Positions 1 to 55,556 of a stretch of DNA of 64,000 bases are shown in pieces. Source of the DNA: Faecalibacterium sp. An121 (GTDB taxonomy: Bacteria > Bacillota > Clostridia > Oscillospirales > Ruminococcaceae); contig NZ_NFLM01000012.1 of assembly GCF_002160915.1 (NCBI RefSeq), positions 1 through 64,000 on the forward strand, read 5' to 3'. The notes under the pieces were generated by a model. That model saw only the letters and a list, made by a program, of their open reading frames with translations. It was not told the origin of the DNA and did not search any database. Both the position numbers and the translations under genes were made by a program. The number at the start of each line of letters is the position of its first letter. Position 1 is the first letter of the stretch.

Positions 1-143
1 AAAAGATAGAGACCCAAAACAGGTTCAAAGGAAGGTCCTTTCCTTTGTGTGCCTATCATAACATACCCCCCCCGGTGTCAAGACCCAATTTCAAAATTTC
101 CCATTTTTTCTTTATTTTCTTTAGTTCGTGTGCTCTAACTTTG
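1..143 (-). repeat. Cassette copy A: promoter/leader repeat of an off-window gene
   Basis: Positions 1-143 match 46065-46209 almost base for base. I see one length difference (8 versus 9 C in a homopolymer) and two substitutions near the outer end. In copy B this sequence is the promoter and 5' leader of a small lipoprotein gene, so a similar gene should start about 30-40 bases left of the window. The outer 39 bases (about 105-143) recur a third time at 55518-55556. An 8-bp inverted repeat (26-33 with 40-47) lies at the predicted 5' end of the transcript. Confidence 0.85.
55..81 (-). promoter_or_regulatory. Promoter of cassette copy A with poly-G spacer
   Basis: On the minus strand TTGACA (76-81) and TATGAT (55-60) are separated by 15 bp that include a run of eight G. 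Copy B has nine G and a 16-bp spacer. The homopolymer lies between the two core elements, where slipped-strand changes would alter promoter strength. Confidence 0.65.
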
Positions 144-156
144 GAAGCAAAAGAAA

Positions 157-44619: not shown

Positions 44620-45098
44620 TGGTCTTTTCCTCCTCCGTTGGTTTTTACAGGAGGGTACAGTCCATCGGAAGATCGAAAAACAGAAAAAATGCGCGGCCTG
44701 CCCGGGAAAGCACTCCTCCATCCCGCCCTGAACCATTCCCCAAAAAGCACCGGCACAAAGCGTATCCACGCCATACCAAACGCGGCCCGCCCACCCGGGG
44801 CGCAAGCCAGCGCAGCCGATGTACTTTTCGGAAGGATCGAACCGCAGCGGGGGTTTTCAGAGTTGCCTATCCCTGCAAAGCTGCGCTTTGCCGCCTGTGT
44901 GCCCAGACGGGAACAGGGGAGACCCGCAGGCTCCCCTCACACAGCACGTCCAAGGCCAGGGCATGACCGCCTCAGGCCTTCCAGTCCACCCCAAAGGCGA
45001 ACGCAGCTTTTCCATTGTCCGATGCGCTGTACCGCTCGGATCTACTATGATCCGGGTCCATTTTCCTGCGTTCACCTCCCATTGTGTTTATCGTTTTG
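44620..45098 (-). promoter_or_regulatory. Long structured mgtE leader
   Basis: About 475 nt between the mgtE promoter and start codon. It contains a short frame (44972-45061), a nested stem CTGTGTG-AGGGGAG ... CTCCCCT ... CACACAG, and a perfect hairpin GCAAAGC-GCA-GCTTTGC. Outer segments near 45045 and 44840 (GATC-CG-AGCGG and CCGCT ... CG-GATC) can pair, closing a domain of about 200 nt. I looked for the M-box (ykoK) consensus GGTGAGGCTCCT and did not find it. Confidence 0.55.
44972..45061 (-). CDS. Possible mgtE leader peptide
   Basis: A 29-codon frame beginning Met-Asp-Pro-Asp-His-Ser near the 5' end of the mgtE leader. The Asp-Pro-Asp start recalls MgtL (Met-Glu-Pro-Asp-Pro), where acid/proline codons destabilise ribosomes at low Mg2+. 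The Shine-Dalgarno candidates are poorly spaced (GGAGG is 13 nt away, AGGA only 3 nt), so translation is uncertain. Confidence 0.35.
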   Translation of the reverse strand: MDPDHSRSERYSASDNGKAAFAFGVDWKA

Positions 45099-45127
45099 AT
45101 TATAACGCGGCGTGCAGAAAGGGTCAA
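45099..45127 (-). promoter_or_regulatory. mgtE promoter
   Basis: Minus strand TTGACC (45122-45127), 17-bp spacer, TATAAT (45099-45104). It begins 35 bp downstream of the cassette B 3' repeat. Confidence 0.75.
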
Positions 45128-45162
45128 CCCCCAACCGAAATTTTACGTATCTTTTCCAAAAG

Positions 45163-45395
45163 GCAAAACAATGCGGGGGCCGGCCGTATGGCCGACCCCC
45201 GCAGAGGGACCCTATCTTTCGTGACGCAAAAGTTCTTTTGTTTTGGTGCGATCAACAACAGAAGGAATATGGTTCTATTCCTCTTTGCCGCCACATCGGA
45301 TGGGTGTTTTACCCGAGCGTGCAGGTGGTCTCTGGCACCCGCACGCCCCTTATATCATCTCCCGGTATGGTGCCCCGGGGGTGTTATAAGTAATG
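45163..45395 (-). repeat. 233-bp 3' repeat of cassette B (structured RNA candidate)
   Basis: Identical to 54985-55217 except for five substitutions and no indels. On the minus strand it starts 7 bp after the lipoprotein stop and contains successive hairpins: CCCGG/CCGGG, an 11-bp stem GCGTGCGGGTG/CACCTGCACGC, GGGT-AAAAC-ACCC, GGAATA-GAACCA-TATTCC, and finally GCGGGGGTCGGCC/GGCCGGCCCCCGC followed by ATTGTTTT, which can serve as terminator. In the best open frame (plus strand) all five changes alter amino acids, which argues against protein coding. I do not recognise a known RNA class. Confidence 0.8.
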
Positions 45396-45402
45396 ATTTG
45401 TT

Positions 45403-46038
45403 TTAGACGTTGGTCTTGGAGGTTCCTTTCAGAACAGCCACCACATACGGCTCAGTCTTGTTGTCATTAGTAACCATGCTGCCCTCATAAACATACATGG
45501 TATAATCAATATTCACAGTCGTGTTAGCCGAGACAACAACATTCTCCAAGCCTTTCATACTTTCAGCAATCTGATTTGCTGCCAAGGTACGCACAGAATC
45601 AACAGAAGCGCCTGCACCATTAGAAACAACTGCATAACGCCAGAAGGTCTGACCATTCCCGGTGAAAGCATTCTCAAAATTAGTCATATCATCAGAATCA
45701 AGCAACTGATGAGCATCAGTGAAAGGATCAGCAGTAAATACCATATTCAGTACATTATTGCGTACAGTTGCTTCGACCACCTGGGTGTAAAGGTTCTGGT
45801 TGTTCTCGTTGTACTTCTTCATCGCATTGTTCAGAGCGGTATTCTCTTCAACAGTAATGACCAGATCACCGTTCTTATCAGCGATGGCATTCTTCACAGT
45901 GCTCACGACGCTAGCAGTGGTGGGCTGGCTGCTGGAAGAGCCACTATTGCCGTTGTTAGTTCCCTCACCGCAAGCGGCGAGCATGCTGACGGCCATGATG
46001 CCGGCCAGCGCCAGAGAAGCAATCTTCTTGAGTTTCAT
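45403..46038 (-). CDS. Small lipoprotein, cassette B cargo
   Basis: A 211-residue lipoprotein. The signal is KLKKIASLALAGIMAVSMLA with the lipobox Cys at about residue 23 (AACGEG), followed by an Asn/Ser/Gly-rich linker and a mature domain of alternating helices and strands (TALNNAMKKYNENNQNLY, NVLNMVFTADPF, TVNIDYTMYVY, EPYVVAVLKG). I recognise no family. Its base composition is clearly more AT-rich than all neighbouring genes. AAGGAGG lies 12 bp upstream. It is flanked by a promoter/leader repeat shared with copy A and a 3' repeat shared with copy C. The C-terminal helix-strand-strand order is similar to the copy C remnant. Confidence 0.75.
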   Translation of the reverse strand: MKLKKIASLALAGIMAVSMLAACGEGTNNGNSGSSSSQPTTASVVSTVKNAIADKNGDLVITVEENTALNNAMKKYNENNQNLYTQVVEATVRNNVLNMVFTADPFTDAHQLLDSDDMTNFENAFTGNGQTFWRYAVVSNGAGASVDSVRTLAANQIAESMKGLENVVVSANTTVNIDYTMYVYEGSMVTNDNKTEPYVVAVLKGTSKTNV

Positions 46039-46064
46039 AATGAATTTTTCCTCCTTATGGTGTA

Positions 46065-46209
46065 TAAAAGATAGAGACCCAAAACAGGTTCAAAGGAAGG
46101 TCCTTTCCTTTGTGTGCCTATCATAACATACCCCCCCCCGGTGTCAAGACCCAATTTCAAAATTTCCCATTTTTTCTTTATTTTCTTTAGTTCATGTACT
46201 CTAACTTTG
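46065..46209 (-). repeat. Promoter/leader repeat of cassette B
   Basis: Matches window positions 1-143 with one homopolymer length change and two substitutions. It includes the promoter (46120-46147) and a stem-loop CAAAGGAA/TTCCTTTG (46091-46112) at the predicted 5' end of the mRNA. Confidence 0.9.
46120..46147 (-). promoter_or_regulatory. Lipoprotein promoter with poly-G spacer
   Basis: Minus strand TTGACA (46142-46147) and TATGAT (46120-46125) with a 16-bp spacer containing nine consecutive G. Confidence 0.75.
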
Positions 46210-46232: not shown

Positions 46233-46271
46233 AAAAAAGCGCCCCGTCTGTCAGGGACAGACGGGGCGCTC
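46233..46271 (-). terminator. nifJ terminator
   Basis: Minus strand GCGCCCCGTCTGTC/GACAGACGGGGCGC followed by TTTTTTG. Confidence 0.9.
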
Positions 46272-54039: not shown

Positions 54040-54098
54040 CCGTACAATTATGAACGTTTTCTATACATCCCACGCGACTTTTATGAAACTTTCACCGG

Positions 54099-54677
54099 TC
54101 ACAGGGAGGTGACGAAGATCTCCACCCCGATGAAGATCAGGATGGCGCCGCCCAGCAGCGAGGCCTTGCCCGCCAGTTTGGTGCCGAAGGTGCGGCCGAT
54201 CACCAGGCCCCCGGTGCAGATGACAAAGGTGACCGCCGCAATGATGGCGGCGCAGACCAGGGCCATCAGGGGGCCGTATTCCGCAATGGTAAAGCCCACC
54301 GACAGCGCGTCGATGGAGGTAGCCACCCCCTGCAGCACCAGGCCGCCCCGGCTCACCGCGCCGGCGTCGTCTTCTTCCTTGCTGCGGATGCCCTCCAGCA
54401 GCATCTTGCCGCCGATGTAGCACAGCAGGATCAGGGCGATCCAGGGGATCAGGACGGTGAAGCCCTCGAACAGCTGCACCACCGTGTGGACGCAGATCCA
54501 TCCCAGCAGGGGCATCAGGGCCTGGAAGCCCGCAAATACCCCCGCAATGCCGAACATCCGGCTGCGGCTCATGCCCGGTTCATGGAGGCCGTTGGCCATC
54601 GAGACCGAAAAGGCATCCATCGCCAATCCCACTCCCAGCAGGGCGCTGTTGATAAAAAAGACCAGATTCCATTCCAT
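54099..54677 (-). CDS. mntP: Manganese efflux pump MntP
   Basis: A 192-residue membrane protein with six helices in two repeats. The paired acidic motifs are GLAMDAFSVSMANG (about 15-28) and ATSIDALSVGFT (about 112-123), the conserved Asp residues of MntP. It exports Mn2+ and protects against manganese excess. The ATG at 54677 follows GGAGGAAA; the longer open frame runs through the riboswitch platform. Its leader carries a yybP-ykoY riboswitch and a terminator. Confidence 0.95.
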   Translation of the reverse strand: MEWNLVFFINSALLGVGLAMDAFSVSMANGLHEPGMSRSRMFGIAGVFAGFQALMPLLGWICVHTVVQLFEGFTVLIPWIALILLCYIGGKMLLEGIRSKEEDDAGAVSRGGLVLQGVATSIDALSVGFTIAEYGPLMALVCAAIIAAVTFVICTGGLVIGRTFGTKLAGKASLLGGAILIFIGVEIFVTSL

Positions 54678-54817: not shown

Positions 54818-54916
54818 CATGAGTCTCGCAATGGGTATAAGCAAGCCAGGCCCGGCGGGCCAGTATGTTGACTTGCTGCGCCGCGGTTTGCAGGCGGCGC
54901 TTGCTACTCCCTCATG
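54818..54916 (-). ncRNA. yybP-ykoY manganese riboswitch
   Basis: A 99-nt aptamer on the minus strand. P1 is CATGAG/CTCATG. The conserved GGGAGTAGC box, the central AGTCAACATACTGG segment and the distal GCGAGAC box occur in the right order, with a GC-rich helix GCCGC/GCGGC between. It lies directly upstream of mntP, the usual partner gene of this Mn2+-sensing class. Confidence 0.88.
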
Positions 54917-54984: not shown

Positions 54985-55217
54985 GCAAAACAATGCGGGG
55001 GCCGGCCGCATGGCCGACCCCCGCAGAGGGACCCTATCTTTCGTGACGCAAAAGTTCTTTTGTTTTGGTGCGATCAACAACAGAAGGAATATGGTTCTAT
55101 TCCTCTTTGCCGCCACATCGGATGGGTGTTTTACCCGAGCGGGCAGGTGGTCTCTGGCACCTGTGCGCCCCTTATATCATCTCCCGGTATGGTGCCCCGG
55201 GGGTGTTATAAGTAATG
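54985..55217 (-). repeat. 233-bp 3' repeat of cassette C (structured RNA candidate)
   Basis: Same length as 45163-45395, with five base differences. One lies in the loop of the terminal hairpin and four in the arms of the 11-bp stem. Three of those weaken pairing in this copy (two C/C or A/C mismatches) and one turns G-U into A-U. The copy therefore may be partly decayed. It ends with the same GC hairpin (54995-55025). Confidence 0.8.
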
Positions 55218-55218
55218 T

Positions 55219-55518
55219 TTAGTGGTTATCTTTGGTAAAATCAAAATCTACCAGAATACCAATCACAAAACACTCGCCATTCTTTTTGACATCACCATCA
55301 TACTTGCCATCAGCAGTGACAATTCGAATGGACATATTGCAGTTTTCTTCATCAGAAACATTCTGCACATATTGATCAACATAATTCGCAAGATTACCTG
55401 CAATCCATTCGTCACTGCGTTCGCGGCTAACAATGAACAGGCCAGCATATGTTACGTCAGTATCATTCAAACTTCCGCCAAAATCATCGTTTGTTTCAAA
55501 CCGAGTGTAGTCACTAGT
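55219..55518 (-). pseudogene. Truncated cassette C cargo (lipoprotein remnant)
   Basis: About 99 codons remain open, with an in-frame TAA at 55525-55527 inside the outer repeat and no ATG; the only start is a TTG at 55470 (83 codons) lacking a ribosome binding site. The product end (helix DEWIAGNLANYVDQYVQNV, strands NMSIRIVTADG and ECFVIGILVDF) has the same layout as the end of the cassette B lipoprotein but little identity. The promoter, leader and signal peptide are missing: sequence passes directly from the 39-bp outer repeat into mid-gene. Composition is AT-rich. It is a deletion remnant or a silent cassette. Confidence 0.65.
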
Positions 55519-55556
55519 TTTTCTTTATTTTCTTTAGTTTGGAATCTCTAACTTTG
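55518..55556 (-). repeat. Outer 5' flank of cassette C
   Basis: Shares TTTTTCTTTATTTTCTTTAG and the CTCTAACTTTG end with 105-143 and 46171-46209. It marks the upstream border of the cassette just after the gyrA terminator. Confidence 0.75.

Follow-up and report, generated by a model that had tools for sequence, protein, structure and literature searches.

The window analysed here is a stretch of 64,000 nucleotides from Faecalibacterium sp. An121 (positions 1 to 64,000 of contig NZ_NFLM01000012.1), and it holds three copies, A, B and C, of a small lipoprotein cassette (Table 1). Copy B is a complete cassette. Read 5' to 3', a full cassette consists of an A-rich flank with a hypervariable octamer, a promoter, a 5' UTR, a lipoprotein gene and a structured 3' RNA with a terminator. 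The promoter, assigned by its match to the consensus and therefore putative, takes the form TTGACA-spacer-TATGAT, the spacer being composed of CC, a G tract and TATGT. The 81 nt to the start codon hold a hairpin and a strong Shine-Dalgarno site, the mature protein is mostly 180–230 amino acids long, and the 3' RNA spans ~225 nt. In the leaders listed from the window's genome (hereafter G000), the outer flank is mostly kept, the octamer excepted, and in copy B it may function as an UP-like element. The octamer itself, between AAAGTTAG and AACTAAAG (46193-46200 on the minus strand, and in other leaders), differs in most copies.

Table 1. Features of cassette copies A, B and C in the window, with the records of the related anchor1/anchor2 locus.
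Feature	Position	Strand	Remark
Copy A: outer flank, promoter (G8 tract) and partial 5' UTR	1..144	-	gene past contig start
Copy B outer flank: AAAGTTAG, variable octamer (46193-46200), AACTAAAGAAAATAAAGAAAAAA	46170..46208	-	A-rich, UP-element-like
Copy B promoter: TTGACA 46142-46147, 16-nt spacer, extended -10 TGTTATGAT with TATGAT 46120-46125	46120..46147	-	by consensus only
Copy B G9 tract in promoter spacer	46131-46139	-	
Copy B 5' UTR, -10 box to start codon	46039..46119	-	hairpin 46091-46112; GGGTCTCTATCTTTT 46066-46080; Shine-Dalgarno AAGGAGG
Copy B lipoprotein gene, 211 aa (P0001)	45403..46038	-	variable mature part after signal peptide
Copy B signal peptide to lipobox cysteine	45970-46038	-	lipobox by eye
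Copy B structured 3' RNA	45163..45395	-	terminator at about 45173-45203
Invariant 29-mer TTCCTTCTGTTGTTGATCGCACCAAAACA in copy B 3' RNA	45239..45267	-	antisense to anchor2 5' UTR
AAAGATAGGGTCCC in copy B 3' RNA	45206..45219	-	complements the cassette's own 5' UTR; one mismatch, one G-U
Copy C structured 3' RNA	54985..55217	-	
Copy C coding remnant, 3' half of a family gene	55222..55524	-	without start, signal peptide or promoter
Copy C 39-bp outer flank	55518..55556	-	sole leftover of its leader
Terminator-like inverted repeat, 3' of the pyruvate:ferredoxin oxidoreductase gene	46239..46271	-	5' border of copy B insertion
anchor1/anchor2 records	L282 (G000:C23:67500-71000), L283, L284, L291, L292, L293		

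Copy A starts its contig (C4), so that only a leader is present. The first-pass annotation of this DNA had described three partial copies with conserved flanks around variable cargo, and the sequence relations that it gave hold up. The leader shared by A and B is 97.9% identical over 145 columns, the 3' repeat common to B and C is 97.1% identical over 239 columns, and the outer flank occurs in all three copies (86% over 50 columns for C against B). The coding DNA of B and C is without real similarity (best BLASTN E 0.98, BLASTP E 2.9), and both stretches are AT-rich in GC-rich surroundings, with a GC content of 0.451 in the B cargo and 0.389 in the C remnant against 0.630 in the window. While cassettes and cargo variation were thus borne out, copy C is not a cassette like B. 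It is a remnant in which the outer flank is fused directly to the 3' coding half, the promoter, 5' UTR and signal peptide being gone, and it fits positions 139-203 of the family profile (21 bits). The poly-G promoter, the structured 3' RNA and the antisense match to anchor2 described below had no place in that annotation.

Other features of the window were observed near copies B and C. Downstream of copy B, 45000-45135 (-) contains a short ORF (MDPDHSRSERYSAS...) with GGATCATAGTAGATCC as well as a promoter-like site, and this stretch is conserved in G006, G010 and An122. At 54840-54877 (-), a 411-base search gave a sub-threshold match to the yybP-ykoY manganese riboswitch (26.2 bits, gathering score 45, E 1.9e-5), upstream of a gene at 54061-54501 (-) that resembles mntP by eye.

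The genome of the window (G000; 2.71 Mb in 62 contigs) carries about 24 cassettes. A search of G000 with the 3' repeat gave 29 matches, which by our count represent 24 distinct 3' ends, and a search with the leader gave 34 matches, or 23 intact and 2 partial 5' ends; contig ends often fall within cassettes. Related genomes hold copies as well. Within the genus, the leader is present in 10 of 31 genomes and the 3' RNA in the same 10. A pattern made of the 5' UTR and Shine-Dalgarno site matched 48 stretches in named genomes, 47 titled Faecalibacterium and 1 Candidatus Gemmiger, and the Faecalibacterium-titled carriers are An122, Candidatus species with poultry names and uncultured bins. An122 is one of five Faecalibacterium isolates from chicken caecum (excerpt of PMC6069880). 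G000 itself is probably a Faecalibacterium of the poultry type. When 297 genomes of the family were searched with the 3' RNA model under stricter filters, three matches were returned, namely G000, An122 and one match of 27 bits that we regard as chance. The exact core of the 3' RNA had no match in viral contigs. The protein profile matches in 130 of 197 family genomes; among the matches listed, those outside the genus cover mostly the signal-peptide end, and full-length ones are confined to the ten cassette genomes.

Several cassettes depart from the standard layout. Some family genes are in tandem (L060, L066, L067 and L010): An122 and G000:C30 have two genes behind one leader, and G023 and G021 have arrays of two or three units. 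One cassette gene, L016 (G000:C8:57164-57811), contains an in-frame TGA. In G025, L073 and L082 have both an altered 5' UTR segment and an altered 3' RNA core.

The mature parts of the cassette proteins belong to one very divergent family, and the nearest relative of a member is often in another species. Thus the variation in cargo claimed by the first-pass annotation is real, while the cargo is not a set of unrelated proteins. Copy B has no Pfam or NCBIfam match above the curated cut-off. A comparison of 45 members with Pfam, NCBIfam and PHROGs yielded scattered weak matches, the widest being to a lipoprotein model in 7 of 45. The AlphaFold2 model of copy B is weak (pLDDT 66.9) and has no match in the PDB at E <= 0.001. 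For member L110 the model is better (pLDDT 83.3, pTM 0.77), and it too has no match at E <= 0.001 in the PDB or among viral models. Weak structure matches, for example to phage tail proteins and BabA, were taken as chance, and in a sequence search of solved structures the low end of E-values held designed helical proteins only. With no Pfam match above cut-off and no PDB fold at E <= 0.001, homology to the Opa beta-barrel was not found. The lipobox suggests that these lipoproteins are exposed at the surface.

The G tract is the variable part of the promoter. In 23 G000 promoters of the TTGACA/poly-G form, a form that the search pattern requires, the only differences are at the G tract, with G9 in 8, G8 in 13 and G7 in 2, one of the two G7 promoters also being without a C; these lengths, like all tract lengths here, are taken from draft assemblies. 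A 24th promoter belongs to the partial leader at C22; its tract is G6, and it carries one additional change. Among the G000 records in which the 81 nt following the -10 box can be read, this stretch shows no difference (8 of 8), and the corresponding stretch of the copy B 5' UTR is also conserved in other species. Over 8 genomes, 53 promoters have spacers of 12 (1), 13 (3), 14 (5), 15 (30), 16 (11) and 17 (3) nt, one G010 promoter having an A within its G tract. By eye, six promoters from G021, G022 and G023, in which G runs do not exceed six, have spacers of 17 (five) or 18 (one). As in promoters controlled by simple sequence repeats, the tract lies between -35 and -10 and its length varies among otherwise identical promoters.

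From this anatomy and from known systems, we propose that slippage at the G tract may act as an expression switch. Each cassette would be transcribed from a separate sigma-70-type promoter whose -35/-10 spacer contains a slippery G tract, and gain or loss of G would move the spacer over about 12-17 bp and turn transcription of that copy up or down. Tracts of G7-G9 are short for very fast slippage. It is also conceivable, though we think it unlikely, that the genes are a constitutive multigene lipoprotein family under diversifying selection, with no switching and with an incidental G tract kept by concerted evolution. The sole near-identical pair of cassettes at one locus has G8 in both, with no tract change there, which is in keeping with a constitutive family. 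On the other hand, length changes in the 23 G000 promoters occur only at the tract while the 81 nt that follow do not vary among the 8 readable copies, and the most frequent spacer is 15, off the 17-18 bp of the relatives without a tract.

To compare flanks with cargo we used the 32 of 63 records that have a complete leader, a complete 3' RNA and >150 aa, from 9 genomes. Leaders had a mean identity of 0.98 within and 0.89 between genomes, 3' RNAs one of 0.85 and 0.78, and mature proteins one of 0.22 and 0.21. On the respective trees the genome label changes 11, 15 and 18 times, where the minimum is 8 and shuffled labels (300 shuffles each) give ~21. Between genomes, 21 pairs of cassettes have flanking DNA in common; their cargo identity is 0.20-0.32 in 20 pairs and 0.84 in one. 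Since the mean over all between-genome pairs is 0.27, pairs that share a flank resemble pairs in general. Flanks and cargo are therefore unlinked, through replacement, rearrangement or both.

Individual sites illustrate this. At the copy B site, G000 and An122 have cassettes with different cargo, bordered by the pyruvate:ferredoxin oxidoreductase gene on one side and by the same leader downstream. Both flanks match and cargo identity is 0.31, whereas the site is empty in G006 and G010. Comparison of the same loci across genomes, as the first-pass annotation had suggested, thus shows both presence or absence at one site and different cargo beside the same flank. Its proposal of a family with conserved flanks and variable cargo stands, and the combination that it named as refuting (no other copies, no variation, and cargo that follows the core genome) was not observed. 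A further case is L092, a 4.2-kb contig of a MAG titled Ca. Gemmiger excrementavium and the only cassette contig in that MAG, which is probably a misbinned contig of a strain close to G000. Compared with G000:C26, L092 is 97% identical along the 3.3 kb that lead up to the signal peptide and 99% identical along 196 nt of the 3' RNA, and the protein encoded in between differs; L092 stops within the 3' RNA, so that its downstream flank cannot be read, and the repeat may contain a wrong assembly join. The octamer also differs between L092 and G000:C26.

We propose that copies or strains recombine through the near-identical leader and 3' RNA, which would serve as homology arms; flanks and coding regions thereby become unlinked and sites change their protein. 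This outcome is observed; the route may be gene conversion, crossing-over or DNA uptake. A ComEC-type competence gene is present in G000 and would make DNA uptake possible.

One alternative is that the cargo pattern reflects chromosomal rearrangement by crossing-over between cassettes, in part misjoins in draft assemblies, and not replacement of coding regions at fixed sites. Both flanks are readable in 7 of the 21 flank-sharing pairs, and 4 of these match on one side only, which points to crossing-over or other rearrangement at cassettes. At the L005 site of G000, moreover, the two flanks match two different G010 cassettes, and contig ends are frequent in cassettes. Rearrangement between cassettes therefore appears to be at work besides replacement of cargo. 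Yet the other 3 of 7 pairs match at both flanks and still differ in cargo: copy B with its An122 counterpart and two pairs that lie within the tandem arrays of G023 and G021. As an explanation of the whole pattern, rearrangement is a possibility to be taken seriously, although we find it somewhat doubtful. As in an Opa-like family, conserved flanks are unlinked from a variable coding region, with both flanks shared in 3 of the 7 readable pairs.

A transposon-like cassette that inserts between terminators and promoters, with the lipoprotein as passenger and flank identity due to recent spread, would account for about 24 dispersed copies, for flanks that are very similar within a genome and for a B site occupied in some related genomes and empty in others. 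Recent spread, however, predicts similar cargo, and the observed mean identity within genomes is 22%. In addition, the DNA flanking cassettes is often common to species (21 pairs), and the cassettes read contain no transposase or recombinase gene. We consider this explanation quite improbable. The term mobile, which the first-pass annotation had offered beside recombining, is not supported as it stands: the cassettes read hold only the lipoprotein gene, and recombination at the flank repeats accounts for the cargo pattern.

The 3' RNA was analysed in an alignment (A1, model R1) of 31 of 40 sequences, the 9 left out being mostly near-duplicates, and it covaries. In the RNAalifold structure of A1, 96.7% of cells pair compared with 91.1% in shuffles, and two-sided changes affect 21 of 56 pairs and 112 cells, as against 12.2 pairs and 32.9 cells in shuffles. 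The covariation signal is lost when the pairing partners are slid, a comparison in which the unshifted structure is favoured over slid versions because it was derived from A1 itself. The RNA is probably co-transcribed with its gene. MicL provides a precedent for regulation by such a molecule, as it comes from the 3' end of one mRNA and pairs near the start of the lipoprotein mRNA lpp. The present case differs in that the RNA is carried by every full member of the very family it would regulate, and in the window Rfam at gathering score returns one tRNA only, with no match to the 3' RNA. Sub-threshold Rfam listings were low-scoring, the best being TD-1 over the terminator, and assignment to a known RNA family was rejected.

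A candidate target in trans is anchor2, which shares a fixed locus with anchor1; both are lipoprotein genes related to the cassette proteins, with other UTRs and with promoters that have no long G tract. The 5' UTR of anchor2 contains a segment, GTTTTGGTGCGAGTTACAAACAACAACAAGGAGGAAATTT, that is the same in six genomes (G000, G003, G004, G006, G010 and G016, which is An122) and complements the 29-mer of the cassette 3' RNA, the Shine-Dalgarno site included, with an unpaired stretch in between. In duplex tests of six leader and RNA pairs, which ignore the folding of the 3' RNA, the duplex with anchor2 reached -38.9 kcal/mol, where 1500 random windows had a mean of -22.9 (sd 2.9) and 0 of 1500 were as low. 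Perfect pairing extends over 13 bp, whereas no random window exceeded 11. Such conserved complementarity near the ribosome-binding site of a target is what is expected of a trans-acting 3'-UTR RNA. Three further combinations were neutral or spoke against action in trans. anchor1 against the cassette RNA was not unusual (1058 of 1500 random windows as low), nor was the cassette leader against the anchor2 3' UTR (1341 of 1500). anchor2 against its own 3' UTR was ordinary in energy (910 of 1500 as low) but had a 10-nt perfect match, as long in 10 of 1500.

The 29-mer is exact in 41 of 41 distinct 3' RNA sequences from the six anchor2 genomes, which may be one clade; a broader context-based count, in which some cassettes are perhaps counted twice, gives 55 of 55, and the 29-mer is also present in the L092 contig. 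anchor2 was not found in the stretches of G021, G022, G023 and G025 suggested by the profile matches listed. In these four genomes the 29-mer is exact in 1 of 8 (G022 1/1, G021 0/2, G023 0/2, G025 0/3) and the 13-mer is present in 2 of 8. Because G022 keeps the 29-mer without a detected anchor2, the 29-mer may have other duties.

The 3' RNA also complements the 5' UTR of its own cassette, in a register that differs from that of anchor2. This duplex has -36.8 kcal/mol, a value reached by 6 of 1909 random windows in one test and by 2 of 1500 in another, and the complete copy B mRNA is predicted to close 5' to 3' in its minimum-energy fold. It could therefore be that the 3' RNA is a transcript-stabilising or processing element only, or acts in cis only on its own 5' UTR, and has no target in trans. 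We give this close to an even chance. The persistence of the 29-mer in G022 fits this explanation as well. Arguing for a target in trans, the match with anchor2 is longer and stronger than the match with the own leader (13 bp perfect, 0 of 1500), and the own-leader duplex varies over the tested pairs from z -5.0 to -0.7, being weakest in G025.

If the RNA does act in trans, its invariant segment would cover the ribosome-binding region of anchor2, so that a cassette that is ON may silence this default lipoprotein. A stronger form of the proposal is exclusive expression enforced by RNA, in which slippage switches a cassette ON, its 3' RNA silences anchor2 by one antisense segment and the sibling cassettes by another (GAAAGATAGGGTCCC against their 5' UTR), and flank recombination renews the repertoire. 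We regard it as tentative and rather unlikely. If true, this would be antigenic variation with an RNA arbiter in every full variant gene.

Taken together, these results are best explained by a dispersed, recombining family in which hypervariable surface lipoproteins vary in phase individually and the 3' RNA is a candidate regulator in trans; we assign this explanation a probability of roughly 0.7. Phages or host IgA would be the likely selective agents.

Large phase- or antigen-variable families are best known from pathogens and mycoplasmas. In Neisseria, porA is switched through a poly-G spacer, opa genes switch through repeats in their coding regions, and recombination takes place among the opa genes. 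The Vlp lipoproteins of Mycoplasma hyorhinis vary in phase independently of each other and have a poly-A tract in the promoter spacer; their genes are few and clustered, and are not known to exchange cargo via conserved flanks of this kind. The cassettes are therefore like Vlp in being a lipoprotein family with a homopolymer in the promoter spacer, and differ from that system of few, clustered genes.

The neisserial opc gene is switched through its promoter region, where a poly-C tract varies, and gonococci have as many as 11 opa genes at separate loci (excerpt of PMC3960869). The cassettes share with opa the scattered complete surface-protein genes and with opc the tract in the promoter. They differ from opa, which switches through coding repeats, in that a promoter-spacer tract and a recombining dispersed family occur together, in a Firmicute commensal and with a conserved 3' RNA. 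Phase variation of lipoproteins is also described in mycoplasmas (excerpt of PMC11868660). Mycoplasma gallisepticum, a poultry bacterium, has many variable vlhA lipoprotein genes with promoter-proximal repeats between conserved flanks (excerpt of PMC6258824). In vlhA the repeat unit is GAA and lies some 40 nt before the transcription start, whereas here a G tract lies between -35 and -10; the organism is unrelated, and the abstract of that paper is silent on a structured 3' RNA. By analogy, the cassettes appear to resemble the opa, opc and vlhA systems in their working, and they are not members of Opa.

In the literature searched, the nearest gut-commensal precedent for G-tract slippage is Bifidobacterium breve, in which, as far as the excerpt of PMC9187656 goes, a pilus is switched by slippage of a G tract and further tracts occur in promoter spacers. 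The B. breve tract lies inside a gene and concerns two pilus clusters, whereas the cassettes form a multigene family with an RNA. For Faecalibacterium, phase or antigenic variation did not come up in the literature searched, whose scope left out most subscription papers and included others in excerpt.

A family of two dozen copies in a commensal of a butyrate-producing genus would mean that selection by phages or antibodies is comparable there. The cassette repeats also help to explain why surfaces are hard to read from draft genomes, and the conserved 3' RNA offers a candidate, open to direct test, for the coordinated choice of variants.
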